Below, in pieces: positions 42,951-63,298 of a DNA stretch of 64,000 bases. The notes under the pieces were generated by a model that made no database searches, was not told the origin of the DNA, and worked only from the letters and a program-made list of their open reading frames with translations. Each line of letters begins with the position of its first letter. Position 1 is the stretch's first letter. The stretch spans positions 3,492,096 to 3,556,095 of the forward strand of contig NC_014145.1 of the NCBI RefSeq assembly GCF_000253115.1, given 5' to 3'. The stretch is from Thiomonas arsenitoxydans (GTDB taxonomy: Bacteria > Pseudomonadota > Gammaproteobacteria > Burkholderiales > Burkholderiaceae_C). The position numbers and the translations under genes were made by a program.

Positions 42951-43043
42951 TTGCCCAGTAGCAACTGCGCGGTGCGTGAAGCAAACAGCACACTGCTGCT
43001 TCCCAGTTGACTGAGTAATTTTCCCAACCCGCTTCGGCCTGAT

Positions 43044-43058: not shown

Positions 43059-43249
43059 ATATCATGATGCATACAAGTCTGGGGCTCGCTGTCATGCTCC
43101 GTCTGTCCAGCACCCACCCGAACCCAAACACAAGTTGGAATGCATTCCGTGGCAATTGGCGCCACACGGCAGCAGTGCGCAACGGGCACCGCACTGGTGC
43201 AAGTTGCACCAAACCCGCCAGATCAATCCAGTCAACATTGAGGCAAACC

Positions 43250-43456: not shown

Positions 43457-43506
43457 ACCCTGTCACATAGCCCGACCCAACTGTCCTTCCGCCGAGAAGA
43501 CCTTCC

Positions 43507-44886: not shown

Positions 44887-44911
44887 CAGCACACCAACCG
44901 CCAATCTCGAC

Positions 44912-45301
44912 ATGACCCCATCCGCGATCAACCTCCCCGACGTCCTGGCCGAAGTCGAGGACATGTTCGCTCGCTACGAACAGGCGCTGGTGAGCAACGA
45001 CGTCGCCAGCCTTGACGCCCTGTTCTGGAATTCGCCGCATACCCTGCGCTATGGTGCAACCGAGAACCTCTATGGATTCGACGCCATCGCGGCGTTTCGG
45101 GCCCAACGTCCGGGCCAAGGACTGGCGCGACGCATTCGCCACCGCTCCATTACCACCTTCGGCCGTGATTTTGCCGTGGCGAACGTTGAATTCGAACGCA
45201 GCAACAGCCCGCGCGTCGGACGCCAAAGCCAGACCTGGGTGCGCTTTGAGCAAGGGTGGCGCGTGGTTGCCGCGCATGTGAGCTGGATGGACACATTATG
45301 A
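44912..45301 (+). CDS. atzH: AtzH/HpxZ-like protein (DUF3225)
   Basis: 129-residue SnoaL/NTF2-like protein ([30 protein letters not shown], then [24 protein letters not shown]). AtzH is reported to process allophanate- or dicarboxyurea-type intermediates, and HpxZ is linked to oxalurate catabolism. The stop overlaps the GntR start (ATGA), so regulator and enzyme are translationally coupled. Confidence 0.82.
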
Positions 45302-46047
45302 CAACTGCCGCAGCACGCACGAGCCACGTTGCAATCAAGGCCAAGCCCGCGCCCAAGGCGGCGTCGCGCGCAGAGGAAATCTACGCCCGCTTGCGCGAAG
45401 AAGTGTTTGAGTTTCACCTGTTACCCGGCCAGCGCTTCACGGAAACGGAGTTGGCCGAGCACTATGTCGTATCCCGCACCCCGGTGCGCGAAGCACTGCT
45501 GCGCTTGCAGGCTGAAGGGTTGGTACGCGGCTATTTCCGCAGCGGCTGGGAAGTCGTGCCGATCGACTTCGCTCGTTTCGACCATCTGTACGAATTGCGC
45601 AAGCTCGTTGAAGTGCACGCCGTTCGCAAGCTTTCCATGCGTGAACTGGCCACTGAAACGCAAACCATGCTGGATGCGCTGGCAGCATCCTGGATCGTGG
45701 ACAAATCGGCGCGTCTGAGTGATGCCCGAAAGATCTCATTGCTGGATGAGGCCTTCCATACCAATCTGGTGGCTGCCGCGGGCAACCCAGAGATTCTGCG
45801 CGTGCATGCGGAAATCACCGATCGCATCCGCATCATCCGCCGCCTCGACTTCACCTATACCCATCGCGTCAGCACCACCTACGACGAGCATGCCGCCATC
45901 CTGCGTGCCATCCAGCGCCACAAGCCCGACCAGGCCGAACTGCTGATTCGAGCCCACATTGATCGCAGCCAGATCGAAACACGCAAGATCACCTTGCACC
46001 GCTTGCAAAACATACGCACCGAAACACAACACGACGCTGCGCTGTAG
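45298..46047 (+). CDS. GntR-family regulator (FadR/FCD subgroup)
   Basis: 249-residue regulator: winged HTH at residues 24-85 ([49 protein letters not shown]) and an FCD ligand domain with likely metal-binding residues ([42 protein letters not shown]). ATG 45298 overlaps the atzH stop. The palindrome TCTTG-N4-CAAGA found at 42915 and 46214 is its probable operator. Confidence 0.88.
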
Positions 46048-46192
46048 TGCGTCCACCTTGTTATTTCTCTTCGCATGGTCGGCAGGCACGTTGAGCGCCG
46101 TCTTTGCTTAGGGCGAAAGACGATTCTGTTTTTCATGCCCCACACCGTGAAAGATGAGGGAGCTAACGGCCTTATTTTGCAGCGCTTGAAGC

Positions 46193-46207
46193 AGGCATGC
46201 ATCTTGC
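46193..46207 (+). promoter_or_regulatory. Sigma-54 type promoter, rightward (46267 transporter unit)
   Basis: AGGCAT-GCATC-TTGC, followed by A. The GG and GC pairs have correct spacing, but two bases of the -24 box differ from TGGCAC. Predicted start near 46219, inside the operator-like palindrome. Confidence 0.55.
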
Positions 46208-46213
46208 ATTTTT

Positions 46214-46227
46214 TCTTGCACACAAGA
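46214..46227. promoter_or_regulatory. TCTTG-N4-CAAGA site, likely GntR operator
   Basis: TCTTGCACACAAGA has the same arms as the perfect palindrome at 42915-42930, and likewise overlaps a predicted sigma-54 start. Confidence 0.6.
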
Positions 46228-46266
46228 TGCTTCCGACCTATCTGCATCGAATCTCAAGGGGCTGCT

Positions 46267-47277
46267 ATGAACGAAAAAATTTCTCGGGTTTCCAGCTTGG
46301 CTGACGCGTCACGCCGCACCGCACTGAAAGCTGGGCTCGCCGCAGGGCTTGTCAGTGGGTTCCCAGCGCTGGCGCGTGCGCAGGACAACACTATCCGGAT
46401 TGGCTACTGGCCCATCGCCGCGGGGATTCCGCTGTATGCGGGCGTCAATCATGACGTCTTCAAACAAGCAGGACTGCAAGTCGAGGCCGTGAAGTTTGCG
46501 AGCGCCCAGCAGGTCGTCGAGGCCATGATTGCTGGGCGCATTCACGGATCGGCCAACGGCACTGCATCTGCCGCGCTCGGTCTCGGTGACATTGCTGAAC
46601 CCGGCCTGTGCAAAATCATCGCAGCCAATCCATCAAACGCCAAACTGGTGCTCGACGAAGTACTGGTGGCGGAGAAGAGCGATTACAAAACCATCGCGTC
46701 TCTCAAGGGAAAGCGCATTGGCTGCGGCCCTGGCATTCAAAACGTGACCCTGGCGAAGATCATTTTTGAAAAGAATGGCTATCCAGAGGTCAAGCCAATT
46801 GAAATGCCTGTCGGCCAACATGTCGCCGCGCTTGCGGCGGGGCAAGTCGACGCCGTCTATACGCTCGAGCCCACGGGCACTGTGGGTCGGCTGAAAGGCT
46901 TGACCAAAATCCTCGAAACCGGCGTGATCTCAAAGTACGTTCTGGGCAATCCGATGGCCCCGTGGTACGGCGGCTCGGCCTCATTGACCGCCGCCTTTCT
47001 CAAGGCACAGCCAGAGCTGGCCAAACGCTACATCACCGCCTATCTCAGCGCAATTGACCTCGTGCTCAAGGAACCGGCCAAAGTCCGCCCCGACCTAGTG
47101 GGCTACACCGCCATCGACGCCAAGCTGGCTGAAGCCGTTCCCTTGCCGGGCTTCACGACCTACAGCCAGTTCACACCTTCCGATATTGGTTATTTCCAGA
47201 AATTTTTCGACGTATTCACCGAGCGCAAAATTTTCACACGCAAGGTTGATGTCGCCTCCATGTTGTACCGGGCCTGA
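46267..47277 (+). CDS. NMT1-type binding protein with Tat-type signal
   Basis: 336-residue periplasmic receptor. Twin-arginine leader SRRTALKAGLAAGLVSGFPALARAQ (residues 15-40), then IRIGYWPIAAGIPLYAGVNHDVFKQAGL, an NMT1/SsuA-like fold. ATG 46267 follows AAGGGG. Starts a unit with a permease, an ATPase and an alpha/beta hydrolase. Ligand unknown; the shared operator with the ureide genes suggests a related compound. Confidence 0.87.
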   Translation: MNEKISRVSSLADASRRTALKAGLAAGLVSGFPALARAQDNTIRIGYWPIAAGIPLYAGVNHDVFKQAGLQVEAVKFASAQQVVEAMIAGRIHGSANGTASAALGLGDIAEPGLCKIIAANPSNAKLVLDEVLVAEKSDYKTIASLKGKRIGCGPGIQNVTLAKIIFEKNGYPEVKPIEMPVGQHVAALAAGQVDAVYTLEPTGTVGRLKGLTKILETGVISKYVLGNPMAPWYGGSASLTAAFLKAQPELAKRYITAYLSAIDLVLKEPAKVRPDLVGYTAIDAKLAEAVPLPGFTTYSQFTPSDIGYFQKFFDVFTERKIFTRKVDVASMLYRA

Positions 47278-47288
47278 GCGTCATCACT

Positions 47289-48035
47289 ATGCAACGTCTG
47301 CTTCCTCTCACGGGACCATTTCTGCTCCTGCTGCTGTGGCAAATGGCAGTGTCCGCGCACTGGGTCAACCCGGTGCTGCTCCCCTCGCCCGAAGACACGC
47401 TGGCGACGCTCTGGACCAGCCTGATTGATGGCAGCATGTGGCCGGATTTTCAGGCCACTGTGTTGCGCACCTTCTACGCCTTTGCCATTGCAGCAGTGAT
47501 TGGCGTGCCACTGGGCGTTGCGCTGGGCAGTTCGCCTGCCATTTATCGCAGCGTCGAATTCTTGGTCGATTTTTTCCGCTCCACGCCATCTTCTGCACTG
47601 ATTCCCTTGTTCATGCTGCTGTTCGGCCTGTCCGATCTGAACAAGATCGCGATCGCGGCGTTCGCCGCCGTGCTGCTCATCTTGTTCAACAGCGCCTATG
47701 GCGTGATGAATGCGCGCAAGACCCGCGTGCTTGCCGTCAAGGTCATGGGCGTCTCGCGCTGGCATGTGTTCAAGGATGTGCTGCTACTGGAGAGCCTACC
47801 GCAGACCTTTGTCGGTCTACGAACAGGCGTGAGCATGGCGCTGGTCATCGTCATCGTTGCGGAGATGTTCATCGGCTCGGATACCGGTCTGGGACAGCGC
47901 ATCATCAACGCGCAACAAGTGCTCAACATCAAGGGCATGTATGCGGCCATCCTGCTCACCGGCATCCTGGGATATGCCCTGAATCTGCTGTTCTCGTTGG
48001 TGGAAATACGCTTTGTTCACTGGGGTGGAAAATGA
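47289..48035 (+). CDS. ABC transporter permease
   Basis: 248-residue permease with about six membrane segments and an EAA loop near residues 148-170 (VMGVSRWHVFKDVLLLESLPQ). It belongs to the nitrate/sulfonate/taurine class. It begins 11 bases after the receptor gene and overlaps the ATPase start by four bases. Confidence 0.9.
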   Translation: MQRLLPLTGPFLLLLLWQMAVSAHWVNPVLLPSPEDTLATLWTSLIDGSMWPDFQATVLRTFYAFAIAAVIGVPLGVALGSSPAIYRSVEFLVDFFRSTPSSALIPLFMLLFGLSDLNKIAIAAFAAVLLILFNSAYGVMNARKTRVLAVKVMGVSRWHVFKDVLLLESLPQTFVGLRTGVSMALVIVIVAEMFIGSDTGLGQRIINAQQVLNIKGMYAAILLTGILGYALNLLFSLVEIRFVHWGGK

Positions 48036-48880
48036 ACGCACTTGCAAAGCTATTCCAGGGCGGACCCAAGAAGACGGGAACGCCGGACGGCCTCCCCGAA
48101 CTGACGCGGCTCCCAGCGGCGCCAGAGACGCATGTGACGATCCGCGGACTTAACAAGCAGTTCGGCGGCGTGCCCCTCTATCAGGGGTTTGACCTGGATA
48201 TTCCACGCGGAAAGATTGTCTCCATCTTCGGCCCGAACGGCTGCGGAAAATCCACGCTCATCAATATGATTGCAGGACTGCTGCCCGTGGATGGCGGCGA
48301 GATTTTGTTCGACGGAAAGAGCCTGCGAGAAACGGTCATCGGCTATGTGTTCCAGAACTATCGCGAGGCGCTGCTGCCCTGGCTGTCCGCGCGGCGCAAC
48401 ATTGAATATCCGCTGATCCGCAGCGGGATGAAGCCCGTGCAGGTGAAGGCGCGCGTGGACGAACTGGTGGCCGCTTTCGACATCCGATTCGACCTGGAAC
48501 GACACCCCTATGAGTTTTCCGGGGGACAACAACAACTCGTGTCCATCATGCGCGCCCTGGCGCCGCGCCCCGAAGTGCTGTTTCTGGACGAACCCTTCTC
48601 CGCGCTCGACTATGAAATGACGCTGTTCATCCGCGACAAGCTGCAGGAGGTGCAACTGCAGGACCGCACCACGACGCTGATTGTCTCGCACGATCTGGAG
48701 GATGCCGTGTTTCTCGCCGATCGCATCCTGCTGCTCACGCGCCGGCCAACACGTGTTGCAGCCGCACTGAATTTCGAACTTGCACGACCGCGCGGCCCAG
48801 AGTCAATCGCGGACGCCCGGTTCATTGAGGTGAAATCCAACGCCCTGGAAATTTTTCGCCGTGAGCTAGCCTCTTCATGA
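48032..48880 (+). CDS. ABC transporter ATP-binding protein
   Basis: 282-residue ATPase: Walker A FGPNGCGKST (near residue 64), VFQNYREALLPW, signature FSGGQQQL, Walker B LFLDEPFSALD, H-loop VSHDLEDA. The first 35 residues are a family-atypical leader. It overlaps the permease stop and the next gene's start by four bases each. Confidence 0.9.
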   Translation: MNALAKLFQGGPKKTGTPDGLPELTRLPAAPETHVTIRGLNKQFGGVPLYQGFDLDIPRGKIVSIFGPNGCGKSTLINMIAGLLPVDGGEILFDGKSLRETVIGYVFQNYREALLPWLSARRNIEYPLIRSGMKPVQVKARVDELVAAFDIRFDLERHPYEFSGGQQQLVSIMRALAPRPEVLFLDEPFSALDYEMTLFIRDKLQEVQLQDRTTTLIVSHDLEDAVFLADRILLLTRRPTRVAAALNFELARPRGPESIADARFIEVKSNALEIFRRELASS

Positions 48881-49713
48881 GCGCGAAGATCACCCAAAAG
48901 CGCCCCATGCATCTCTATCGTGGGATGGACAAGGCAACTCTTGATGCCGCCTACAACAACAGCGCCGCGGTCACCGACAGCGCACAAATTCTCATGCGTT
49001 GGGAGGACCGCAGCATGCAGCTCCGATCCTCCCGGGCCTCTCTCCTCGTCTTGCACTACGCCACGGGTGAACGCAACCGCATCGATTGCTTTGATGCTGG
49101 CCCTGGCACGCCTTGGCTCGCATTCATTCATGGCGGCTATTGGCAGATGCGCGCCAAGGAAACCTTCCACTTCGTCGCTGCGGGCCCTCTTGCCCTTGGG
49201 ATCAGCGTGGCATTCATCGGCTACACGCTGGCGCCAGAAAAGAGGCTGGACGGCATCGTTGCGGAAATCTCCGCAGCGCTGGATATATTGACGCAACGGG
49301 TCGGTGCCATCCATCTTTCTGGCTGGTCGGCAGGCGCTCACCTCGTAGCCATGAGCATGGGCCACCCGGCAGTGAAGAGTGGGCTGGCCATGAGCGGGAT
49401 TTACGACCTTGAGCCCATGCGCCTGTGCTATGTGAATGACAAGCTGGGGCTGGACGAAGACGAGGTCGTGCGCAACAGCCCGATTGCGCTTCCTGCACCC
49501 AGCAAACCCCTGGTGATCGCCTACGGCGGAAGCGAGTTGGCCGAGTTGCAGCGTCAGTCTGTCTCCTACTTTCAGACTCTTCAAATACAGCGCACGAACT
49601 TGCACGCATTGGAGCGCCTTGACGGCCATCACCATTTCTCCATCCTCGAAGAATTAGCCTCGCCGACCGGCGCGCTTGCGCTTGCCGCAGCGCGCCTCAC
49701 GGCTGTGCGTTGA
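48877..49713 (+). CDS. Alpha/beta hydrolase, kynurenine-formamidase-like
   Basis: 278-residue esterase or amidase of the BD-FAE / arylformamidase-like group. Oxyanion-hole motif FIHGGYW (near 84), nucleophile elbow GWSAG (near 149) and a His-rich C-terminal motif (DGHHHFSILEEL) that supplies the catalytic His. Such enzymes hydrolyse N-formyl or carbamoyl groups. It is coupled to the transporter genes by a four-base overlap, so it probably acts on the imported compound. A 43-base piece of a related gene lies at 11957-11999. Confidence 0.82.
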   Translation: MSAKITQKRPMHLYRGMDKATLDAAYNNSAAVTDSAQILMRWEDRSMQLRSSRASLLVLHYATGERNRIDCFDAGPGTPWLAFIHGGYWQMRAKETFHFVAAGPLALGISVAFIGYTLAPEKRLDGIVAEISAALDILTQRVGAIHLSGWSAGAHLVAMSMGHPAVKSGLAMSGIYDLEPMRLCYVNDKLGLDEDEVVRNSPIALPAPSKPLVIAYGGSELAELQRQSVSYFQTLQIQRTNLHALERLDGHHHFSILEELASPTGALALAAARLTAVR

Positions 49714-49813: not shown

Positions 49814-49828
49814 TGGCATGAACTTTGC
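49814..49828 (+). promoter_or_regulatory. Sigma-54 type promoter before the riboswitch
   Basis: TGGCAT-GAACT-TTGC, followed by A. Predicted start near 49840, which places the whole riboswitch in the transcript. Confidence 0.6.
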
Positions 49829-49885
49829 ATATAACCCCCTGCACGGAATTGGTGGTGGCACGCCAATTGTTGATTTGCGTTTGAC

Positions 49886-49983
49886 AGGGTAGCTAGGGTT
49901 CCGGCTTCTGCACGAAGCGTCTGGTCCAAGAGCTGCCCGGCCTCTCAAAGAGGCTCCACGGAGGGATAAAAGCCCGGGAGATA
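49886..49983 (+). ncRNA. ykkC-class riboswitch, guanidine-I type
   Basis: The leader shows the ykkC hallmarks in order: CTAGGGTTCCG (49893-49903), a GCTTC/GAAGC hairpin, CTGGTCCAAGAG (49921-49932; the consensus usually has GGTCCGAGAG), a GCCTCT/AGAGGC hairpin, then CACGGAGGGATAAAAGCCC (49958-49976) and CGGGAGA. The last block is typical of subtype 1, which binds guanidinium. ykkC subtype 2 variants (ppGpp, PRPP) are the alternative. Boundaries are approximate. Confidence 0.88.
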
Positions 49984-49997
49984 AGCGACACCGCTTA
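49982..49997 (+). promoter_or_regulatory. Hairpin after the riboswitch
   Basis: TAAGCG-ACAC-CGCTTA forms a six-base-pair stem with a four-base loop right after the aptamer. No U-run follows, so it is not an ordinary terminator. It may help form the expression platform. Confidence 0.4.
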
Positions 49998-50041
49998 CTT
50001 CCGTGCTTTGCCATTTTTCCCTCACCCTCGGAGCCCGCATC

Positions 50042-51052
50042 ATGATGTCTACACGCAAAGCTGTCATCCGCACTTTTGCAAGCCTTGCCGTATTTGCTTC
50101 CATTGCAGTCGCCAGCAGTCAGGTGGCCCAAGCGGCCCCCAAGATGGTCATTGGTACTGTGGTCTGGATTGGCTACGGTCCGTTCTATGTTGCTGATGCC
50201 AAGGGTTTTTTCAAAAAATACGGTCTCGATGCGAAGCTGCAGAATTTCAATGATCCTGCGGTGATTCCCTCGGCCATCGCCAGCGGTGCAGTTGATGGTG
50301 GCATGTTGACCTACGACCAGGTGATTGGCACCGACGCTAAGGGCTTGGGCCTGCAGGTAGTTATGCCCATCGACTATTCCAATGGCGCCGATGCCATTGT
50401 GGCTAAGCGTGACATCACGACGGTGAGTCAGTTCAAGGGCCAGAAGATTGGCTACAACCCGCTGTCACCCTCCGATTTCCTGCTCACTTATGCCTTGATG
50501 AAAAACGGCATGGGAGAAAAGGATGTGCAGTCCGTCAGCATGACGCCCGAGTCTGTGCCCGCCGCCATGGCATCGGGTGGAATTCCGATCGGGGTCACCT
50601 ACGAACCGAGTCTGTCGCAGATTGTGGCCATGGATGACGGCAAAAAATTCCATGTGGTGTTCTCTTCAAAGGATGCGCCGGGTCTGATCACGGATGTGCT
50701 GGTCTACAACAAGTCCTACATCCAGAAGCATCCCGCTGAAGTGAAAGCAACCATTGAGGCCTATCTGGAGGGGCTGGCCTACATGAAGAGCCATCCGGAG
50801 GAAACAGACGCGCTCATCGGCAAAGCCATGGGCATTTCCGCAAAAGACGTGAAGGATCAGATGTCCGGCGTGTTCAACATTCCATTGGACGGCATGGTGA
50901 AGTCGTTCACCAAGTCCACTTCGACGACATCGTTCTACGGCAGCGGCCCCGTCATCGGCAAGGTGCTCATGGGCAAAAAGCAGATCACCGCAGTGCCTCC
51001 GATTGAAAACACGTTCGATGCGTCCTTCGTGATGGCACTCAGCAAAAAGTAA
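50042..51052 (+). CDS. NMT1-type binding protein under the guanidine-I riboswitch
   Basis: 336-residue periplasmic receptor with a signal peptide to about residue 30 (SQVAQA), then KMVIGTVVWIGYGPFYVADAKGFFKKYGL, typical of the nitrate/sulfonate/taurine/NMT1 class. ATG 50042 (or 50045) follows CTCGGAG. No permease or ATPase gene follows, so it must share a membrane complex, perhaps the one at 47289-48880. Receptors of this class are commonly found downstream of guanidine-I riboswitches. Confidence 0.88.
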   Translation: MMSTRKAVIRTFASLAVFASIAVASSQVAQAAPKMVIGTVVWIGYGPFYVADAKGFFKKYGLDAKLQNFNDPAVIPSAIASGAVDGGMLTYDQVIGTDAKGLGLQVVMPIDYSNGADAIVAKRDITTVSQFKGQKIGYNPLSPSDFLLTYALMKNGMGEKDVQSVSMTPESVPAAMASGGIPIGVTYEPSLSQIVAMDDGKKFHVVFSSKDAPGLITDVLVYNKSYIQKHPAEVKATIEAYLEGLAYMKSHPEETDALIGKAMGISAKDVKDQMSGVFNIPLDGMVKSFTKSTSTTSFYGSGPVIGKVLMGKKQITAVPPIENTFDASFVMALSKK

Positions 51053-51128
51053 TTCAATTGGTGTCGCCCTGTGTTGCTTTGGAATGCAAAAGCAGAGCGG
51101 CGCCAGATTCAACACTCTGGGGGCTCCC

Positions 51129-52139
51129 ATGGCTTCTTCCATCTTTCGCTACAAGGGCGGCGCACTACCCAACGTCGTCGCCTTGACCTACACGGTGCTG
51201 GGCTACGCAGGCGGGCTGGCCCTGATCACAAGCAGCTCTTGGTGGATAAACGCGCTCGGCGTATTGCTGTTGGCGCATGCGCTGATCTATTCCGCCTATT
51301 TCCTGCATGAATTCGCCCATGGCACGGTTTTCAAGACCAATGCCGCCAACCAGCGTGGCGGCATCGCAATGAGCTGGATCAATGGCAGTTGCTATGCGCC
51401 GTTCACGGATCTGCGCCGCAAGCACATGCGTCATCACATCGACCGTGCAGACGTGATCACATTTGACTACAGGCAGTTCCTGCTCGCGTCGCCACGTTGG
51501 CTGCGCGGAACCGTCGTGGCGCTGGAGTGGGCGTATCTCCCGGCTGTGGAGTTTCTGATGCGGGCTTATGTGATGTTGCTGCCGTTCATCGAACCGGAAC
51601 GCGCCGCCGCTCGCAAGCGCATCCTGGGCGTTTTCACTGTGCGCGTCCTGTTCTTCGCCTTGCTCGCCTGGTTTTCACTCAAAGCCCTCCTGCTGTACTT
51701 CCTGGCCTATGTGCTGTTCATCACCGCTTTGCGCTTTGCGGATGCGTATCAACATACCTATGACGCCTTCGCCATCTTGTCGACGGGGGGCATTCCGGAC
51801 GAGAAGCTGCGCGACCACGATTACGAACAGCACAACACCTATTCAAACCTGGTCTCTGTGCGATTTCCGTGGATGAATCTGTTGCTGCTGAATTTCAGTT
51901 ATCACAACGCGCATCACGAGAAGCCCACTGCGCCATGGCATCAGCTTCCCGCATTGCATCGCCAGCTCTATGCTGATGAGCACTCTCAGGTGATCCCGAT
52001 GGCGTCACTGCTACGTGGTTTCCATCGTGATCGCGTCCGGCGGGTGCTGAGCGATGACTATGGTGTTGTGACCACTGGCCCCGACAAGGCCGAGCGTTTC
52101 TATGGGGCGGTTGGCGTGTCTTTTCTGACCGCAGTCTGA
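51129..52139 (+). CDS. Membrane di-iron fatty-acid-desaturase-like hydroxylase
   Basis: Integral membrane protein of 336 residues with the histidine boxes of the desaturase/hydroxylase superfamily: HEFAH (60-64), HMRHH (99-103) and HNAHH (259-263), plus a further His at YQHTYDAF. Four or more hydrophobic segments lie around residues 12-60 and 165-200. The context, with guanidine riboswitch, small-molecule receptor and creatininase, argues for oxidation of a small nitrogen compound rather than a lipid. ATG 51129 is preferred; Met 51084 is possible. Electron donor unknown. Confidence 0.82.
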   Translation: MASSIFRYKGGALPNVVALTYTVLGYAGGLALITSSSWWINALGVLLLAHALIYSAYFLHEFAHGTVFKTNAANQRGGIAMSWINGSCYAPFTDLRRKHMRHHIDRADVITFDYRQFLLASPRWLRGTVVALEWAYLPAVEFLMRAYVMLLPFIEPERAAARKRILGVFTVRVLFFALLAWFSLKALLLYFLAYVLFITALRFADAYQHTYDAFAILSTGGIPDEKLRDHDYEQHNTYSNLVSVRFPWMNLLLLNFSYHNAHHEKPTAPWHQLPALHRQLYADEHSQVIPMASLLRGFHRDRVRRVLSDDYGVVTTGPDKAERFYGAVGVSFLTAV

Positions 52140-52144
52140 AACCT

Positions 52145-52930
52145 GTGGCCGCGCTCGATTTTTCTGGTAAGACGGTTCTGGTGACAGGAGCGTCGGGCGG
52201 CATCGGACTCGCCATCGCCCAAGCCTTCGGCGCGCATGGCGCGACGCTTGAACTGGTTGATCGCGTCTTGCCCATGCAGAGTTCCGAGACCCGTCGTCTC
52301 ACTGCTGCAAGTGCGGTGACCTGGCATGCGGCAGACCTCGGCGACGCCTCGGCCGTGGAAGCGCTGGCGCAGGCCCTGCAGCAGCGCGGCGTTTCCGTCG
52401 ATGTGCTGGTCAACAACGCCGGAGCGGAATACCCAACCCCTCTCGATGACGAGGATCCGCTGGCTGCCAGCCGCTGGTCTGCCCTGCTACACAACAACGT
52501 CACCAGCATGTATCTGCTCACCCGCGCTGTGCTGCCCTTGATGGTGCAGGACACAGCGGTCATCAATCAATCCTCCATCTGGGGCAAGACAGGCGTGGCG
52601 CACTTTTCAGCTTATGTCGCCAGCAAACACGCGGTCATCGGCTTGACGCGCGCCTTCGCCGCCGAACTCGCACCTCGCGGCATCCGGGTGAACACGGTCT
52701 GTCCGGGCTGGGTGCGGACTGCGGCAGCCATGCGCTCGCTCCACGCGATGGCTGCGCGCAGAGGCATGGAGGCCTCCGCGCTGCAGGCTGAAATCCTCAA
52801 CGGCCAGGCCATTGCCACCTTGCTGGAGCCGGAGGACATCGCAGGCACTTTCCTGTTTCTCGCATCGTCCCTGGCCAAGGGCATCACCGGCCAGAGCATC
52901 GTCGTGGACAACGGCGAATTCATGAACTGA
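52145..52930 (+). CDS. Short-chain dehydrogenase/reductase (SDR) 1
   Basis: 261-residue classical SDR starting at GTG 52145, five bases after the desaturase stop. Cofactor motif TGASGGIG (residues 14-21), Asp at the end of strand 2 (ELVDR, favouring NAD), NNAG, catalytic Ser in NQSSIWG and YVASK (Tyr-x3-Lys). Probably oxidises an alcohol made by the upstream hydroxylase, or reduces an aldehyde (inference). Confidence 0.85.
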   Translation: MAALDFSGKTVLVTGASGGIGLAIAQAFGAHGATLELVDRVLPMQSSETRRLTAASAVTWHAADLGDASAVEALAQALQQRGVSVDVLVNNAGAEYPTPLDDEDPLAASRWSALLHNNVTSMYLLTRAVLPLMVQDTAVINQSSIWGKTGVAHFSAYVASKHAVIGLTRAFAAELAPRGIRVNTVCPGWVRTAAAMRSLHAMAARRGMEASALQAEILNGQAIATLLEPEDIAGTFLFLASSLAKGITGQSIVVDNGEFMN

Positions 52931-52941
52931 GCCACAAGCCC

Positions 52942-53694
52942 ATGACATTTTCACTCGCAGGAAAAACCGCGCTGGTCACCGGTGCAGCGACGGGGATCGG
53001 TCGCGCCATCGGCATCGCCTTGGGGCAGGCCGGAGCCACGGTCATCGTCAACCACCTCGGCCGGCTGGAGCAGGCACAGCAGACCGTCGCGCTCATCGCT
53101 GCCACGGGTGCGAAGGCCTGGGCGATCGAGGCCAACGTGGCGGATGCCGCTTCCGTAACCCAAATGGTGGAGGCCGTGCTGCAACGTCATGATGCGCTCG
53201 ACATTCTGGTCAACAACGCGGGCATCCTGCTGGAAACGCCCTTTCTCGACACGAGCGAGGCGGAGTGGGATCAGGTGATCAATACGGATCTCAAGTCGGT
53301 CTTCCTGTGCTGCCGGGCGGTCCTGCCGTCCATGCTGAGCCATGGAAGCGGCTGCATCATCAATATCGCTTCAGAGCTTGGTTATCTTGGGCGCGCTGGG
53401 TTTACCGCGTACACCACGGCGAAAGCCGGCGTCATTACCCTGACTCGCTCACTCGCGCGCGAGTTCGCCCCCACAGTGCGCATCAACGCCATCGCCCCCG
53501 GACCGGTGGACACGGCCATGCTGTCGCTGCATCAGATGAGCCCGGAATGGGTGGCCAAGGAGAGCGCCATCCCCATGGGCCGTGTCGGTCGACCAGAGGA
53601 AATCGGCGGGACCGCCGTCTTTCTCGCGTCCGAGCAAGCGAGCTTTTACTGCGGTCAGACCTTGAGCCCTAACGGAGGGGCGCTGATGGCGTGA
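52942..53694 (+). CDS. Short-chain dehydrogenase/reductase (SDR) 2
   Basis: 250-residue classical SDR: TGAATGIG (near 12), NNAG (near 91), Ser in INIASELG (near 142) and YTTAK (near 156), with the C-terminal GRVGRPEEIGGTAVFLAS block common in 3-oxoacyl-reductase-like or glucose-dehydrogenase-like members. It begins 11 bases after SDR 1 in the same unit. The two SDRs are not close duplicates. Confidence 0.86.
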   Translation: MTFSLAGKTALVTGAATGIGRAIGIALGQAGATVIVNHLGRLEQAQQTVALIAATGAKAWAIEANVADAASVTQMVEAVLQRHDALDILVNNAGILLETPFLDTSEAEWDQVINTDLKSVFLCCRAVLPSMLSHGSGCIINIASELGYLGRAGFTAYTTAKAGVITLTRSLAREFAPTVRINAIAPGPVDTAMLSLHQMSPEWVAKESAIPMGRVGRPEEIGGTAVFLASEQASFYCGQTLSPNGGALMA

Positions 53695-53700
53695 CCGGGC

Positions 53701-54588
53701 ATGACGACACAACACACTCCGTCTGCCGCTGCACCCGTGCTGGCCCTGCTCACCGGCGCCCTGCTTTGGGGGCTGGCATGGTGGCCACTGAAGTATTTTG
53801 GAAGTGCGGGAATCAGCGGCAATCTGATGGTCAGCGTCAGCTATGGCCTCGTCGCCATACTGGGCTTGCCTGTGTTGTGGAGGCAGCGGCGGCAATGGCA
53901 GAGGCAGGCCGGCCTGTTCCTGCTGATCGCTGTTCTGGGGGGATGGGCAAACACCTCGCTGGTCAATGCGCTGATGAGCGGCAATGTGGTGCGCGTCATG
54001 CTGCTGTTTTACATGGCCCCTGTCTGGGGCGTGCTCGCAGGCCGGCTTTTTCTCGGCGAGCACATATCGCTGCATCGCGGCGCCGCTTTGGCATTGGCAC
54101 TCGTCGGGGCGTTTGTGCTGTTGGGTGGACAGGCGGCCTTTATAACGCCGTTGTCCCCGATCGACATGATGGCGCTTTCCGCCGGACTGGCGTTTGCCCT
54201 GACCAACGTCACGACGCGTGCAGCCCATGCCATACCGCTGGCCAGCAAGACCTTGGTCATTTTCCTGGGTTGCACGGTCACGGCCACGACGGCGGCGTTG
54301 ACCATCGGCCAGACTCTGCCCGCGTTGCCAGCGAGCGTCTGGGGACTGATTGGACTGTTCTCGCTCACTTGGCTGGCGCTGGCAACCCTGGCCACGCAAT
54401 ACGGCGTCACGCACATGCAGGCTGGGCGTGCTTCCGTGCTATTGATTCTCGAACTTGTTGCTGCGGTCATATCCGCCATGCTGATCGGCGGTGAAACGCT
54501 CAGACCGCAGGAATGGATCGGCGGAGCGCTGATCGCCTGCGCTGCGCTGTTGGAAGCCCGCACCCCACAACTTTTGCCTGCACGCTGA
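53701..54588 (+). CDS. DMT-superfamily (EamA) transporter
   Basis: 295-residue membrane protein with about ten hydrophobic segments in two EamA repeats (PVLALLTGALLWGLAWWPLKYFG; LSAGLAFALTNVTTRAAHAIP; GRASVLLILELVAAVISAMLIGGE). Could export a metabolite or import a substrate. Guanidine-I riboswitches often control small drug/guanidinium exporters of the related SMR family, but this full-length protein is not an SMR. Starts seven bases after SDR 2. Confidence 0.85.
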   Translation: MTTQHTPSAAAPVLALLTGALLWGLAWWPLKYFGSAGISGNLMVSVSYGLVAILGLPVLWRQRRQWQRQAGLFLLIAVLGGWANTSLVNALMSGNVVRVMLLFYMAPVWGVLAGRLFLGEHISLHRGAALALALVGAFVLLGGQAAFITPLSPIDMMALSAGLAFALTNVTTRAAHAIPLASKTLVIFLGCTVTATTAALTIGQTLPALPASVWGLIGLFSLTWLALATLATQYGVTHMQAGRASVLLILELVAAVISAMLIGGETLRPQEWIGGALIACAALLEARTPQLLPAR

Positions 54589-54599
54589 AAGGATTTGGA

Positions 54600-55391
54600 A
54601 TGAACCCTGTGATGATGGAACGGATGAGCTGGATGGCGTATCGCGACCGGATCGCCGAGGACGACCCGGTGATGTTCCTGCCCTGCGGTGCACTCGAACA
54701 ACATGGCCCGCATCTTCCCCTGGGCACCGATGCACTGCTCGCCACCGCCGTGGCAGCAGGCGCTGCAGCCCGGCTTGAAGGCCTTGTCGCCCCAGCACTG
54801 AGCTATGGCTACAAATCGCAGCCCAAATGTGGCGGCGGTCAGCACTTTCCCGGCACGACCAGCCTGGATGCCACCAGCCTGATTCAGATGACGCGCGATG
54901 TCATCCGCGAACTCGCCCGGCACGGTATCAAACGACTGGTCGTCGTCGTCGGCCATTATGAAAACCAATGGTTCGTCACCGAAGGCATCGACCTTGCCTT
55001 GCGCGAACTCGGCCCGGCTTGCGCCCTGCGAGTGATGCGGCTCGAATACTGGGACTTCCTCACGGAACAAACCCTTGCGCGGGTCTTCCCAGAGGGCTTT
55101 CCTGGCTTCGCTCTGGAACATGCCGCGGTCATCGAGACTTCGCTGATGCTGCATCACCATCCTGAACTGGTGCGCATGGACCTGCTGCCGGATGATGGCC
55201 CCGCACAGTTCCCGCCCTACGACATCTACCCTCTACGTCCCGAACGCGAACTATTCTCAAATGAGGCCTGGTTGCAAAAACAGGTGTCTAAACAAAATCA
55301 ATATCTTACGAGCTTGCAAACGGAATATGCAAGCACTTGCGAGAACTTGCATTGCACTGAAATTGGCACAGATTTGCCACAGAATTTCTAA
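54600..55391 (+). CDS. Creatininase-family amidohydrolase with replaced C-terminus
   Basis: Very similar in motif order to Pseudomonas putida creatininase (creatinine/creatine interconversion). Metal ligands Glu33, His35, Asp44, His119 and Glu121 are all present (GALEQHGPH, VGHYEN), as are YGYKSQPKCGGGQHFPGTT, YWDF and ALEHAAVIETSLML. The Trp near position 174 of the P. putida enzyme is Phe here (GFPGF). After FPPYDIYPLRPERE (about residue 219) similarity ends, and a tail of about 40 unrelated residues runs into AT-richer DNA, suggesting truncation by an insertion. ATG 54600 follows AAAGGA. Activity is uncertain. Confidence 0.82.
   Translation: MNPVMMERMSWMAYRDRIAEDDPVMFLPCGALEQHGPHLPLGTDALLATAVAAGAAARLEGLVAPALSYGYKSQPKCGGGQHFPGTTSLDATSLIQMTRDVIRELARHGIKRLVVVVGHYENQWFVTEGIDLALRELGPACALRVMRLEYWDFLTEQTLARVFPEGFPGFALEHAAVIETSLMLHHHPELVRMDLLPDDGPAQFPPYDIYPLRPERELFSNEAWLQKQVSKQNQYLTSLQTEYASTCENLHCTEIGTDLPQNF
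55300..55360. repeat. Clustered CTTGCA-type short repeats near the island junction
   Basis: CTTGCA or its complement occurs repeatedly here: CTTGCA (55313), TGCAAG (near 55328), CTTGCG (near 55336) and CTTGCA (near 55346). They may bind an excisionase or regulator at the island edge. Confidence 0.35.
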
Positions 55392-55473
55392 AGAGGGATT
55401 TTGAGCACGTAGTTGAATCGGTGAATAAACAGCCTTGCTAGACGCTGAGTGTTCATCCTCTTCTGCTCCTGCC

Positions 55474-55899
55474 ATGACTGCTCCAAAGGCTTCGTCCATC
55501 TCTCCATTTGTCGCCGTAACAAAAGAAGCTGCTGCAGCCGCACTGAGCTGCTCCCTACGCTGGATTGACAAGCTCATCGAGGCAGGTGAGTTGCCTGTAC
55601 CGACAAAAATCGGTCGCCGGGCATACTGGCACCCCGATGAGTTTTATGGGGCGCTCAGCGCCAAGCTGTTGCGAGAAACAAATGCTCCTCGATTCTCGGT
55701 CAACGAGGTCGACCATGCTGATACGCCGAGCCAACCGATTGAGCCGACAGTCGATGGTCGGCGAGCGAGAGCGGCCACCGCAACGAAGCTATCCGTTTCT
55801 GATGCGAAAGGCCCGCCGCATCGACGACGCTCGGCTTCCCCAGTGGACGCGATGCGTGCAAAGACGGCCGCCGTTCTTCGAGTCGTTGCGACGCCTTGA
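55474..55899 (+). CDS. Helix-turn-helix DNA-binding protein, AlpA/excisionase-like
   Basis: 141-residue protein from ATG 55474. Residues 10-70 read as a MerR/AlpA-type winged HTH (FVAVTKEAAAAALSCSLRWIDKLIEAGELPVPTKIGRRAYWHPDEF), found in phage and integrative-element regulators and excisionases. The C-terminal half is basic and low in complexity. It is the first gene after the composition change, consistent with an element-borne regulator. Exact role unknown. Confidence 0.65.
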   Translation: MTAPKASSISPFVAVTKEAAAAALSCSLRWIDKLIEAGELPVPTKIGRRAYWHPDEFYGALSAKLLRETNAPRFSVNEVDHADTPSQPIEPTVDGRRARAATATKLSVSDAKGPPHRRRSASPVDAMRAKTAAVLRVVATP

Positions 55900-55922
55900 G
55901 GGCGATGTAAAAAGAGAACATG

Positions 55923-55948
55923 AAAAAGCGGCCCCAAGTCGGGGCCGC
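55923..55948 (-). terminator. Intrinsic terminator of the 56016 gene
   Basis: Minus strand: GCGGCCCC/GGGGCCGC eight-base-pair stem with a five-base loop, followed by five U. It lies 67 bases downstream of the stop. Confidence 0.75.
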
Positions 55949-56015
55949 CCAAGAATTACATCAGTCCCAACGCTGGGGCCCCATCACCCTCAGCGGTCGA
56001 TTCCACCGCCGGCTC

Positions 56016-56666
56016 TCAGTGCAACACAGCACCCGCTGGCACCTGCAGCCGCCCAGCTTGTCTGACGTCAACATCACTGTCGTGCGTCTTGGGCGGAGGC
56101 ATGCACGCGACCGCCCACCGCTCCCCGACCTCGAAGCCCGGGACGAGGCTCTCCGGCGAGTCTTCAAGGCGCTTGAACAATGCGACCATCTCCAGCGTGC
56201 GCGTCACGAACTCACCCCCAAGCGGCGCTTCATCGACCCGCTTACGAATGGCTCCCCACTGCGCGCTTTCCGGGTCTCCGACGGGCGGCCCGGACGTCAC
56301 GACGATGACTTGGGGCTTGTCGGCAATCGCGACGGCGATGTTCATTGAGCGCCGTGTTTCAACCGCTTCGAACAACCAGGCCTTTGCGACCGTGTTCAGC
56401 ATCGGCACGAGGCACACGACTTGCGTCGATGCGGCTTGCAGCGTGACGATTGCACACAGAAGACCATCACCATTGCCCGCAATGGCAAGGCCCTGACCCG
56501 TCGGCACGAGGCTGCTCTCAAACAGCCGCGCCACGCGGTCCGGTAGCTCGATAAACAGGGCGTGGCCGTCGTAATGGGGCCTTTGCTTCAGCGTCGTCAG
56601 TTCGGCGGCGAACTGCGACGGGTCGAGCAGCAGCCCTAAGCCGATGGAATTTCTCTTCGTAGGCAT
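56016..56666 (-). CDS. Conserved-looking hypothetical protein
   Basis: 216 residues from ATG 56666, preceded by AGGAG. Mixed alpha/beta composition (LFIELPDRVARLFESSLV; LLCAIVTLQAASTQVVCLVPMLN; NIAVAIADKPQVIVVTSGPPVGDP), with no signal peptide or membrane segment. I do not recognise a family. Its own terminators lie on both sides, so it is probably a single-gene transcript or read through from the gene at 56762. Confidence 0.65.
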   Translation of the reverse strand: MPTKRNSIGLGLLLDPSQFAAELTTLKQRPHYDGHALFIELPDRVARLFESSLVPTGQGLAIAGNGDGLLCAIVTLQAASTQVVCLVPMLNTVAKAWLFEAVETRRSMNIAVAIADKPQVIVVTSGPPVGDPESAQWGAIRKRVDEAPLGGEFVTRTLEMVALFKRLEDSPESLVPGFEVGERWAVACMPPPKTHDSDVDVRQAGRLQVPAGAVLH

Positions 56667-56718
56667 TTTTTCTCCTGGGTTGGATGGCCTGCTCTCGTGT
56701 AGCGACCGGCGCCCAGAC

Positions 56719-56743
56719 AAAAAAAGCGGGCCCGCAGGCCCGC
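56719..56743 (-). terminator. Intrinsic terminator between 56762 and 56016 genes
   Basis: Minus strand: seven-base arms GCGGGCC and GGCCCGC around a four-base loop (56743-56726), followed by seven U (56725-56719). Confidence 0.75.
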
Positions 56744-56761
56744 GAACAAAAGAAGGAAAAA

Positions 56762-57379
56762 TCAAGACGCCATCAAGCTCCGGTCTTTCCCGGCTGCATG
56801 CGCTGCCATGGCTTCATGTTCGTCATGCTGGATGGCCGCACGCTGCAACCAGCGCAGGATGTCCGGCAGGAGCGGCAACTCGGCCAGTTCCATCGCCCGA
56901 TTCTTGCCATAGACCATCACCAGGTAATGCCTGTACTCGTCGGTCAGGTCCGCGACGGAGTCCGGCACGAGCGCGCGCAGTTTCGGGTCCGTCAGCATCC
57001 GCGCAAATTCCCGTTCAATCGTGTCGGTCGGTGACTCGATGCGCGTGGCAAAGTCGCCGACCCGGATGTCGCCGGCGAGTAGCCGTGCGGTAATCGGAGG
57101 AATGGCCAGGTAGCGCGCGGCCTTCGTCATGAAGGCGCGGTCCCTGACCAGCCTGGAGGCATGACCGCGTTCGCAGCGTTCAAGCTCCTCCAGGCTGATG
57201 CCGAGGACGTGGGCCAAATGGTTGGCGTCATGCCGGCGCCGAGCCGCATCGTCGAGCACCCAGCCGATGAGCGGGCCGCCTGGGTGCTGGTAAAGCCGCA
57301 ACACGCGTTCGGCCGGGGTCTCCGGGGCGACGTATGCGGACGCGTCGAGCGGTGGATGGAGTGCTGCCTTGTGTTCCAT
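56762..57379 (-). CDS. Hypothetical protein with HTH-like segment
   Basis: 205 residues. Residues 50-70 (NHLAHVLGISLEELERCERG) resemble the core of an XRE-type helix-turn-helix. The rest is helical and rich in Leu and Arg (YLAIPPITARLLAGDIRVGDF; LPLLPDILRWLQRAAIQHDEHEAMAAHAAGKD). Divergent from the XRE-type gene at 57607, suggesting a regulatory pair, though this is inference from arrangement. Confidence 0.6.
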   Translation of the reverse strand: MEHKAALHPPLDASAYVAPETPAERVLRLYQHPGGPLIGWVLDDAARRRHDANHLAHVLGISLEELERCERGHASRLVRDRAFMTKAARYLAIPPITARLLAGDIRVGDFATRIESPTDTIEREFARMLTDPKLRALVPDSVADLTDEYRHYLVMVYGKNRAMELAELPLLPDILRWLQRAAIQHDEHEAMAAHAAGKDRSLMAS

Positions 57380-57606
57380 GGTGATGTCCTGTGTGCACGC
57401 AAATCCGTGCGCTTCCTATAGCGACCGTGGTTTCGCGGCATCACAGAGCGTATGGATGCGGAACCATCCACGCGCAACGTCAAGAGACTGGGCCAGCAGT
57501 AATCCGCGAGCTGGAGGCACCGACGCTTGGATGCTGGTGACTACACCTGAAAGGCCAGTCCTCTGGCGGTCGAAATCGACCCTCCAGAACCCCTCAGGAG
57601 TCACAT

Positions 57607-58248
57607 GTGAAAGTCAAGCAAGCCAGGAAAACCAAGGACCTCACCACCTGCACAGAAGTCAATCCCGCCGAGCCCCAAGTAGCAGAACCCGCACCTCATA
57701 AGCCTCACGCTCCCTGGAGCGGTGAGGTCAGCGAGACATTCGCCGTCCGGCCCGGTGGCCTGCTGATTGCTGCTCTCGTGCAGTGCGCCGCAGAGCGAGG
57801 CCAGTCCTTTCCGGAGATGTGTCGTGAACTGGGCTACAGCTACCCGTACCTGAACCTGCTGATGAGCGGGGTCCGACAGGTCAATCAGATTTCTGACGAC
57901 TTCGCTCGGGCGTGCGCAGCCTATCTGCGCGTGCCTCGCATGAGTATTTTGATGATGGCTGGACGCATCACGCAAGCCGACCTGATGGAACCGGGGCTGT
58001 ATGGCCCGCAGACCATTGAACCGGCGTTTCAAGTCCTGTCAAAGGACGCAGCCTGGGGACCGCTCGTGACCGGGGAACTCCGCGACGTTTCGATGGTGTC
58101 AAAGTACGCGCTGGTCAAGATGTACGAGAAGGCTGAAGGCAAGAAGCTGCTACCCGAAATGGACATCGCGGCGCTACAAACCGAAGTGGTCGCGATGCAG
58201 GCTCACATCAGCACGATAAGGGCAGAGCTCGCGGCGAAGAAAGAATAG
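57607..58248 (+). CDS. XRE-like helix-turn-helix protein
   Basis: 213 residues from GTG 57607, with CAGGAG six bases upstream. Residues 48-115 form an HTH region (LIAALVQCAAERGQSFPEMCRELGYSYPYLNLLMSGVRQVNQISDDFARACAAYLRVP) like domains in phage or plasmid regulators. The C-terminal 40 residues are probably coiled coil (LPEMDIAALQTEVVAMQAHISTIRAELAAKKE). Ends before a strong terminator. Confidence 0.7.
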   Translation: MKVKQARKTKDLTTCTEVNPAEPQVAEPAPHKPHAPWSGEVSETFAVRPGGLLIAALVQCAAERGQSFPEMCRELGYSYPYLNLLMSGVRQVNQISDDFARACAAYLRVPRMSILMMAGRITQADLMEPGLYGPQTIEPAFQVLSKDAAWGPLVTGELRDVSMVSKYALVKMYEKAEGKKLLPEMDIAALQTEVVAMQAHISTIRAELAAKKE

Positions 58249-58279
58249 AAACTGTCGCGCGGTCATTGAGCCCATTCAC

Positions 58280-58303
58280 GCCCCCGTACTGCGGGGGCTT
58301 TTT
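58280..58303 (+). terminator. Intrinsic terminator of the XRE-like gene
   Basis: GCCCCCG/CGGGGGC seven-base-pair stem with loop TACTG, then five U. It lies 32 bases after the stop. Confidence 0.85.
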
Positions 58304-58377
58304 GCATCCAATCCAGCGGCGGTGGTGCAGGTCGGCGGGGTGTACCGAGAAGCGCAGCGATGCGTGGCGGCCTTGCG

Positions 58378-58500
58378 TTACGGCCGGATGTGCGGCACGC
58401 TGCGCAGAGACCACGCATGGCGCAGCCAGGTTTTGCGGAGGTCGCGTGCCAGCACGCAGAGGGTCAGCGCGAGGGCCAGGATGGCAAGCCAATTCAACAT
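58378..58500 (-). CDS. Small single-pass membrane protein (40 residues)
   Basis: Starts at ATG 58500 with AGGA nine bases upstream. MLNWLAILALALTLCVLA is a plausible membrane segment, followed by a basic tail (RDLRKTWLRHAW). On the same strand as the gene at 58604 and 103 bases after it. Could be chance; homologues were not checked. Confidence 0.4.
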   Translation of the reverse strand: MLNWLAILALALTLCVLARDLRKTWLRHAWSLRSVPHIRP

Positions 58501-58603
58501 GTAGCAATGTCCTGGTGATGGTTGTCGGAACGGGTGGGGCTCTCGATTTGTCAGGGCATTATCAAATCAAACGTCCAGCGTGAACAGCCGCTGCCCCCAT
58601 GGT

Positions 58604-59269
58604 CTAGCGTCCACGGCGCTTGACAAAGCCCTTTGCCTGTAGCGCGCGCAGCAGACTTGCTTCCCCTTCGCCCTGCGTAGCTTCCCAGAAATCGGCCCAT
58701 AGCCGGTAGGTCTTTGTCGAGCGCACCTGTTCGTCCGGTGCCTTGCCATAGCGACCTGCGGCAACGGCTCGGGCGGCTTCTTGAACGGCCGCCAATGCCG
58801 ACCGCAAGGGGTCATCGGTCCCTTTGGCATTGGTTGGCATCTGTATTGCCGTGCTGTCGGTCTTCACGCCAGAGAGCGCATCCTGCAAAGCCCCTAACCT
58901 GGTCGCAGACACTGGCATTCCGGCACTGCGCGCAGCGGCTTCACGCACCAGCCGCTGCGCTTCCTCCAGCCGCCACCCAGGGTCGCGCTCCCTCACCTCA
59001 TCCTCCAGCCGTTGCCGTTCCGCAGCTTCCCGCGCGGGCCCGCAAATCTTGGCATCAATGAAGGCGAGCTCGTCGTCTGACATCTGCTCGCGTAGTGCGG
59101 CGGGGATGGATTCGGTGGTCACCGGCAGGCTGCCTACATAGACCTGCCGCGAGTAGCCGTGCGTGTTGCCGGCAGAGCCCTTGGGCACCCAGACGGAGCG
59201 GTAGAGAAGGGCGCGGGCTCGGCGGTGTTTGATGTGCATGGCGACGGCTCTGGTGACAAGTGATGCCAT
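58604..59269 (-). CDS. Hypothetical protein, island-type
   Basis: 221 residues (or from Met 59239). N-terminal basic section HIKHRRARALLYRSVWVPKGSAGNTHGYSRQVYVGSLP, then a long charged helical region (AREAAERQRLEDEVRERDPGWRLEEAQRLVREAAARS). No catalytic motif was recognised. Proteins of this style occur in proteobacterial genomic islands, but I cannot name a family. Confidence 0.6.
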   Translation of the reverse strand: MASLVTRAVAMHIKHRRARALLYRSVWVPKGSAGNTHGYSRQVYVGSLPVTTESIPAALREQMSDDELAFIDAKICGPAREAAERQRLEDEVRERDPGWRLEEAQRLVREAAARSAGMPVSATRLGALQDALSGVKTDSTAIQMPTNAKGTDDPLRSALAAVQEAARAVAAGRYGKAPDEQVRSTKTYRLWADFWEATQGEGEASLLRALQAKGFVKRRGR

Positions 59270-59450
59270 GTGTAGCCATCACCGTTCCACACGCCACCGT
59301 CGCAGGGTGACCCGGCGTATGGACCCAGCGGCACGAAGCCTGCCAACACGTCGGCACCGGGCCAATACCTCGTGGCATCGGCGTGGGTGCACCACGGAGA
59401 TAAACGCGGTGCCTACATGAAGTCCCAACTTCTCTGGACAGGACTTCACC

Positions 59451-59900
59451 ATGCCCGAGCTTCACACCGCCGCAGTCCCCAGCCGTCTCGTCACCCGTAA
59501 CGAATTTGGGGCCCTTTGCCCCGAACGGACCCTATCCGCAGAGGAACGAACCTCCGTCGCCTCCTTGCTGGGCCGCGCCATCCAGGCCGACCTACTCCCC
59601 GAGTCGTACTGCACGCGCTCAAAAAAGGAAATCCAAAGCCGTAACCATCACATCTATGACGTCCTGCTCGACGATGGACGGGTGACCGCTGTGGTTATCC
59701 TCACCCTTGATTTTTGGAAGCACCTGACCAAACTGCGCACCCGGATAGGCAAGGAGTACAACCTGCTAAAAGTCGGCGCGGATGGAGCGGTCGAGGTCAT
59801 CGACATTGATGTGCGTACGTGCGCCAAGCGCGCGAAAAATGCCACGGCATGGGGCGCTTTACTCAAGGGGCAAGACAAAGACACGTGGCCCCTAAAATAA
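59451..59900 (+). CDS. Hypothetical protein
   Basis: 149 residues from ATG 59451. Soluble alpha/beta composition (HIYDVLLDDGRVTAVVILTLDFWKHLTKLRTRIGKEYNLLKV), no signal peptide. Function not recognised. It lies 59 bases upstream of the GHKL ATPase gene on the same strand and may belong to the same unit. Confidence 0.6.
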   Translation: MPELHTAAVPSRLVTRNEFGALCPERTLSAEERTSVASLLGRAIQADLLPESYCTRSKKEIQSRNHHIYDVLLDDGRVTAVVILTLDFWKHLTKLRTRIGKEYNLLKVGADGAVEVIDIDVRTCAKRAKNATAWGALLKGQDKDTWPLK

Positions 59901-59959
59901 GACCTGTTGCCATATCACGCTAGTGACGCGTGTGCAAAAAGAGAAGGCTGACGCGACGC

Positions 59960-63295: not shown

Positions 63296-63298
63296 AAC

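Follow-up and report, generated by a model that had tools for sequence, protein, structure and literature searches.

A guanidine-I riboswitch operon of Thiomonas arsenitoxydans as a candidate module for the oxidative N-dealkylation of substituted guanidines

Introduction

The closest described system to the one treated here is an operon of Vreelandella boliviensis, in which MgdH, a 2-oxoglutarate (2OG)/Fe(II) dioxygenase, hydroxylates methylguanidine, and MgdL, a beta-barrel protein that requires Asp49 and Arg51, splits the stable hemiaminal N-(hydroxymethyl)guanidine (available sections of PMC12508155). Here we analyze an operon of Thiomonas arsenitoxydans headed by a Guanidine-I riboswitch, which lies in a 64,000-nucleotide stretch of contig NC_014145.1 (assembly GCF_000253115.1, positions 3,492,096 to 3,556,095 of the forward strand; hereafter the window, to whose first letter coordinates refer). 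The two systems share the riboswitch class, part of an ATP-binding cassette (ABC) importer, the pairing of an oxygenase with an MgdL-type lyase, and the carboxylase pathway. As far as the available sections of PMC12508155 go, they differ in the oxygenase, here a membrane di-iron protein of the desaturase family and not a 2OG/Fe(II) dioxygenase, and in that the present genes stand in an operon of their own, which has a separate switch and additional short-chain dehydrogenase (SDR), EamA, creatininase, isochorismatase and metallo-beta-lactamase (MBL)-fold genes. We consider it likely that this operon is a guanidine-inducible module in which substituted guanidines undergo oxidative N-dealkylation and the guanidine released enters the carboxylase pathway.

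A second point of comparison is the guanidine carboxylase operon (gca, cgdAB, atzF), which falls under the same riboswitch class and usually occurs in the same genome, that of T. arsenitoxydans included; the operon studied here differs from it in that it encodes none of these pathway enzymes and would, by our prediction, supply the guanidine. For the oxygenase, a parallel is the MocD-type oxygenase of rhizopine catabolism, likewise a desaturase-family enzyme acting on a small polar compound, which differs in having its own ferredoxin and reductase genes and no link to guanidine. The available part of PMC10107442 describes the gene order of rhizopine catabolism and cites a title on a ferredoxin oxygenase complex. 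As for the operon itself, our literature search turned up no earlier mention that we recognized, although one may exist, and it is not named in the available parts of PMC12508155, PMC12186494, PMC11410670 and PMC13296017; in a paper covering both ykkC and a desaturase (PMC2211319, available part), the desaturase is under a B12 switch, not ykkC.

Results and Discussion

A Guanidine-I riboswitch and six closely spaced genes

The aptamer occupies positions 49882-49982 of the plus strand and matches the Guanidine-I family (ykkC subtype 1, Rfam RF00442) over the full length of the model (1-107), at 87.9 bits against a gathering threshold of 63 (E 2.2e-14 in an Rfam search over the whole window). 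The same result came from a permissive Rfam scan of 49840-50041, in which the sole further family was a 16-bit noise match and no guanosine tetraphosphate (ppGpp) or phosphoribosyl pyrophosphate (PRPP) family was listed at E up to 10. A false aptamer was thus rejected because the covariance score exceeds gathering, and another ykkC subtype because the permissive scan lacked the competing families; this covariance-model check, named in the initial annotation, favors Guanidine-I and upholds the aptamer class given there. Further along the leader is a putative expression platform (49969-50018, plus strand), in which a hairpin at 49969-50009 would sequester the 3' strand of the aptamer ahead of a run of five Ts at 50014-50018. 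The hairpin has a folding z-score of -3.4 against shuffled sequences; it was absent from the output of a simple terminator scan, and the T run begins 4 bases past the stem. This predicted competition for the aptamer 3' strand, together with the T run, fits a transcriptional ON switch.

The six genes that follow on the plus strand are separated by gaps of about 5 to 80 bases. The first (50042-51052; PF09084, 8.4e-31) encodes a periplasmic substrate-binding protein (SBP), NMT1/SsuA-like but below the cut-off of the SsuA_fam model, and the operon holds neither a permease nor an ATPase of its own. The second, here called FAD (51132-52139; PF00487, 2.4e-33), encodes a membrane di-iron oxygenase of the fatty-acid-desaturase family, a predicted N-alkylguanidine hydroxylase; its open reading frame (ORF) is open from 51084, and the start of its relatives corresponds to Met17, i.e., 51132. 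PF00487 is its only Pfam family (116.4 bits against a gathering threshold of 29.7), and its three histidine boxes (H75xxxH79, H114xxHH118 and H274xxHH278) are invariant in 20/20 sequences, as are many further residues. Next come two short-chain dehydrogenases, SDR1 (52145-52930) and SDR2 (52942-53694), both PF13561/PF00106 and the latter barely passing a glucose 1-dehydrogenase subfamily model (219.4 vs. a cut-off of 215 bits), then an EamA/DMT-family transporter (53701-54588; PF00892, 3.3e-21). The last is CRN (54600-55229), a creatininase-family amidohydrolase reduced to about the first 210 of some 255 codons, its 3' end having been displaced by an insertion; the whole ORF, scored from 54513, reaches 320.8 bits against a cut-off of 235 for the creatininase equivalog TIGR04448. 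Domain searches found gca, cgdAB and atzF absent from these six genes, in line with the initial annotation, whose aptamer, gene order and tight spacing hold as well; the intact final creatininase that it assumed does not, the ORF from 55230 on being the end of a mobile element.

Conservation of the operon

In a scan of genome contigs, 218 loci proved to encode a FAD relative; the best 80 were kept and their gene neighborhoods mapped by tblastn. Upstream counts refer to the 73 of these 80 with at least 1.6 kb upstream and downstream counts to the 52 with at least 7 kb downstream; locus counts are not corrected for relatedness. SBP precedes FAD in 73/73 loci, and a Guanidine-I pattern precedes this pair in 66/73 (68/80 overall, a stricter pattern picking the same 68). 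Rfam confirmed all eight pattern sites in seven rechecked loci; it did not confirm a looser-pattern site away from FAD in locus L077 (15517, minus strand), which the counts exclude. A survey for the same gene order, as proposed in the initial annotation, thus finds it recurring widely with the aptamer, and a chance neighborhood was rejected on this recurrence across relatives.

Downstream of FAD, the 52 loci hold SDR1 in 39 cases, SDR2 in 40, EamA in 41 and CRN in 41, followed by three genes beyond CRN that we call X9 (45), X10 (36) and X6 (46); the complete order, with or without X10, is found in 35. Bearers of the operon include Burkholderiales, Pseudomonas, Acidithiobacillus and others, with many soil and water bacteria among them. 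Within the family of the host, FAD was detected in 7 of 200 genomes (its own included), and the operon is therefore patchy there. One locus (L054) runs from the switch through permease, ATPase, SBP and FAD without a break, which suggests that SBP uses the guanidine permease. In an Rfam check of 10 sources, which took in the seven loci without the Guanidine-I pattern, Guanidine-II riboswitches were found elsewhere in the locus in L060, which lacks Guanidine-I, and in L016, which is cut short upstream. We also observed a second FAD in 5/80 relatives (L018, L019, L022, L023 and L033, L019 being a 3.1-kb contig), four of them also with a second SBP, perhaps for a second substrate.

The operon is split by an integrative element

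The possibility that the operon ends at CRN was rejected because X9, X10 and X6 are found downstream of it in relatives. In T. arsenitoxydans, an integrative element truncated CRN at 55230 and split the operon, parting X10 and X6 from the switch. Four observations carry this conclusion: the similarity of the window CRN to 54 relatives holds as far as about residue 210 and is then lost; from 55230 onward, identical DNA is present at a second chromosomal site (100% over at least 3,246 bases); a 15-bp direct repeat inside the CRN gene (55230-55244, plus strand), marking the left end of the element, recurs 38.4 kb downstream; and a 3' remnant of CRN (45 residues, 84% identity to a Thiomonas delicata protein) lies beyond the island. 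The CRN reading frame is accordingly incomplete in this genome. The left part of the element fills 55230-64000, from which it extends past the window to a total of 38.4 kb, and the ORF just inside its right end (L102, 9959-11542) reads by eye as a tyrosine recombinase. The right end resembles, again by eye, the 3' half of a tRNA; ARAGORN found no tRNA in the stretches L100 and L003.

Beyond the island the order is CRN remnant, X10, X6, and then, convergently, a cyanase gene and a guanidine carboxylase operon. X10 has an MBL fold and is AiiA-like (143 bits vs. a cut-off of 375), while X6 matched no Pfam or NCBIfam family. A nearly identical layout stands uninterrupted in L012, where CRN and X10 flank X9 and no gene for EamA was found. 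X9 belongs to the isochorismatase family (273 vs. 370 bits for biuret hydrolase, for the L068 copy); it is not beside X10 in this genome, and only two matches (~51% identity) were found elsewhere in the window. Tandem isochorismatase-family genes at 34775-46047 have about 51% identity to the X9 of the operon.

X6 is homologous to the lyase MgdL

The displaced gene X6 bears most directly on function. A profile of the X6 family matches the putative MgdL of locus L117, used as a stand-in for the published protein, with 99.9 probability (E 2.7e-33, 33% identity), and the X6 structure model (pLDDT 90.6) is a lipocalin-like beta-barrel. An Asp-x-Arg pair is invariant in 51/51 X6 proteins (2 of 53 were dropped for length), as well as in all 21 rows of alignment A3; in the L117 homologue it falls at Asp49 and Arg51, the positions published for MgdL, and in L114 at 45 and 47. 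X6 is thus homologous to the MgdL-type lyase and, judged from its sequence, is a predicted N-(hydroxymethyl)guanidine lyase. The idea in the initial annotation that a substituted guanidine is oxidized by the di-iron enzyme, freeing guanidine, gains support from this conserved downstream gene. FAD is not of the 2OG/Fe(II) dioxygenase family of MgdH but of PF00487, a different oxygenase family, and by analogy it may take the role that MgdH has in V. boliviensis.

A survey of 369 genomes of the class, with 2OG dioxygenases beside the matches read by eye, located X6 in seven genomes and eight places. Three of these accompany FAD operons (G000, with the island now between, G114 and G460), and in L117 and L114 a carboxylase gene, a 2OG dioxygenase gene and an X6 homologue stand under a Guanidine-I motif, the mgdH-mgdL gene order of the available sections of PMC12508155. 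One more of the eight places (L118, genome G584) carries a second X6 homologue, which by eye lies behind a 2OG dioxygenase gene within a cluster of spermidine/putrescine-like transport genes; no carboxylase gene was found in this stretch. A plasmid search with X6 returned one weak Streptomyces match, with no neighboring gene recognized as guanidine-related.

This homology also bears on a different reading, in which guanidine itself is the substrate of FAD, which would turn it into hydroxyguanidine or a similar product, or FAD serves detoxification, with the other genes clearing the products and no substituted guanidine involved. The switch senses guanidine, EamA could export, and guanidine riboswitches often control exporters (available part of PMC12186494). 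Yet an MgdL-type lyase needs a C-hydroxylated N-alkylguanidine, which cannot be formed from guanidine, and the carboxylase pathway, with CgdA as its marker, already handles guanidine in 48 of the 50 genomes considered below, so that we find this reading quite improbable.

The operon accompanies the guanidine carboxylase pathway

The carboxylase operon of this genome (L003), about 56 kb from the studied operon and adjoining its displaced end, encodes AtzF, the carboxylase, CgdB (which matches its models in two stretches), CgdA, ATPase, permease and SBP, and has a second Guanidine-I switch; the cyanase gene lies at its end (L003, 2442-2885). Among 50 FAD-operon genomes, representing 50 of the 80 loci and chosen mainly for longer contigs, CgdA (TIGR03425) scores above its cut-off in 48, the L032 genome giving no match and the L063 genome a weak one. 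By comparison, it does so in 29 of the 369 class genomes (47/369 with any match), which include this genome and other operon bearers (Fisher p 4e-40, ignoring relatedness). The initial annotation had proposed a route different from the carboxylase pathway; a carboxylase-independent route was rejected given the convergent carboxylase operon and the CgdA counts, and the operon most likely feeds the carboxylase route instead of replacing it.

Relatives of carboxylase-pathway enzymes or the permease (at least 48% identity) are moreover present inside 51/80 loci and 30/39 full-length loci, and enzymes proper inside 27/80. These neighborhoods weigh against a further alternative, in which FAD, controlled by guanidine, would be a regular desaturase or hydroxylase of lipids and would adapt the membrane to a chaotropic ion. 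Membership in PF00487 is the sole point in its favor, whereas FAD sits after a small-solute SBP and before hydrolases, carries the many invariant residues noted above, and has as its sole NCBIfam match a carotenoid ketolase far under the cut-off; we regard this alternative as very improbable.

The creatininase relative and the dehydrogenases

CRN matches the creatininase structures 1j2t, 1q3k and 3a6e, which we take to be the enzyme of Pseudomonas putida, at E of about 1e-70 over residues 4-217 of 263. The positions that we take as creatininase metal ligands are kept in 55/55 operon CRNs. In contrast, the Trp174-Asp175 pair, presumably the gate of the substrate pocket, is replaced by Phe/Tyr-Ala in all 55, and on this ground the specificity of CRN has probably shifted. 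A further difference from the P. putida enzyme, besides the truncation of the window copy, is the constant company of an SDR: in the 52 loci, SDR and CRN are both present in 41, both absent in 11 and never found one without the other, with absences scattered over the FAD tree (by eye). That they occur only together suggests a second exit through an acylguanidine. Such an exit would amount to a formaldehyde-free dealkylation, in which the hemiaminal made by FAD is oxidized by SDR to an N-acylguanidine (N-formylguanidine in the methyl case) that CRN hydrolyzes to guanidine and a carboxylic acid; we offer this as a tentative and rather doubtful proposal.

The same genes could alternatively serve creatinine catabolism, with CRN a true creatininase or an opener of the oxidized creatinine ring: FAD would convert creatinine to creatol, SDR would oxidize it, CRN would open the ring, X9, as an isochorismatase-type amidase, would remove the acid, and FAD and X6 would demethylate the resulting methylguanidine. 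This agrees with the CRN score above the creatininase equivalog cut-off and the structure matches, with the SDR-CRN coupling and with X9 in 45/52 loci, and a chemical oxidation of creatinine through creatol to methylguanidine is described (available part of PMC3775425). We nonetheless judge it unlikely, since the pocket pair is replaced throughout, the core SBP-FAD pair occurs without CRN or SDR in 11/52 loci, and our literature search gave no paper joining guanidine, riboswitch and creatininase.

Proposed mechanism

Under the N-dealkylation reading, guanidine would stabilize the aptamer and let transcription pass a terminator, and SBP would deliver its ligand, an N-alkylguanidine and most likely methylguanidine, to the ABC permease for guanidine. 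FAD would then hydroxylate the carbon adjoining the guanidino nitrogen to give an N-(1-hydroxyalkyl)guanidine, which X6, given its homology to MgdL and its catalytic Asp-x-Arg, would split into an aldehyde and guanidine. The guanidine would be used as nitrogen through the products of the adjoining genes: the carboxylase, CgdAB and allophanate hydrolase. Where the operon is more complete, one or two SDRs might instead oxidize the hemiaminal to an N-acylguanidine, and CRN might hydrolyze this to guanidine and an acid. Creatininase opens the acyl-guanidine bond in creatinine, the same type of bond that CRN would speculatively cleave.

Several points weigh against this reading. The desaturase family acts mostly on lipids or hydrocarbons, no ferredoxin or rubredoxin gene was noticed among the recurring operon genes, and the structure model obtained for FAD is of low quality (mean pLDDT 61), a fold search with it returning nothing at E up to 0.001 and AlkB only at E 0.63. 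The association of parts is also incomplete: in the 7/73 loci without the riboswitch pattern Rfam found no Guanidine-I, X6 is absent from 6/52 loci (L047, L060, L064, L066, L077 and L082), and in two of the eight class places X6 occurs with neither FAD nor a 2OG dioxygenase (L113 and L115; in L113 its neighbors are EamA and an ABC transporter, and CgdA follows after some 8 kb). Finally, the SDR, creatininase, isochorismatase and MBL-fold genes would be superfluous for methylguanidine alone, so that a larger molecule may be the main substrate. Further searches with FAD gave no match in PDB sequences (profile search) and one cyanobacterial desaturase (37%) among plasmids.

Neighboring features of the window

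Just upstream of the aptamer ends a set of genes at 46075-49713 comprising a second NMT1 SBP, a permease, an ATPase and an alpha/beta hydrolase, with no Guanidine-I before them. The region at 34775-46047 holds, by eye, the two tandem isochorismatase-family genes along with a nitrilase-like gene, an ABC transporter and an amidase, perhaps a nitrogen-scavenging cluster. A xanthine riboswitch (RF03054, 54.5 bits) at 17071-17120 lies upstream of ORFs read by eye as a Rieske-like oxygenase, an ABC ATPase and an amidohydrolase.

Significance

The operon is a concrete and widespread candidate for a membrane di-iron oxygenase and an MgdL-type lyase working under a guanidine switch, usually in company with carboxylase genes. 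If the proposed acylguanidine exit is true, it would give the creatininase fold a new job and represent a new kind of N-dealkylation, beside a membrane di-iron N-alkylguanidine hydroxylase. More broadly, if the N-dealkylation reading holds, genes now labeled fatty acid desaturase and creatininase would receive new assignments, and the use of substituted guanidines would be far commoner than the halophile system suggests.

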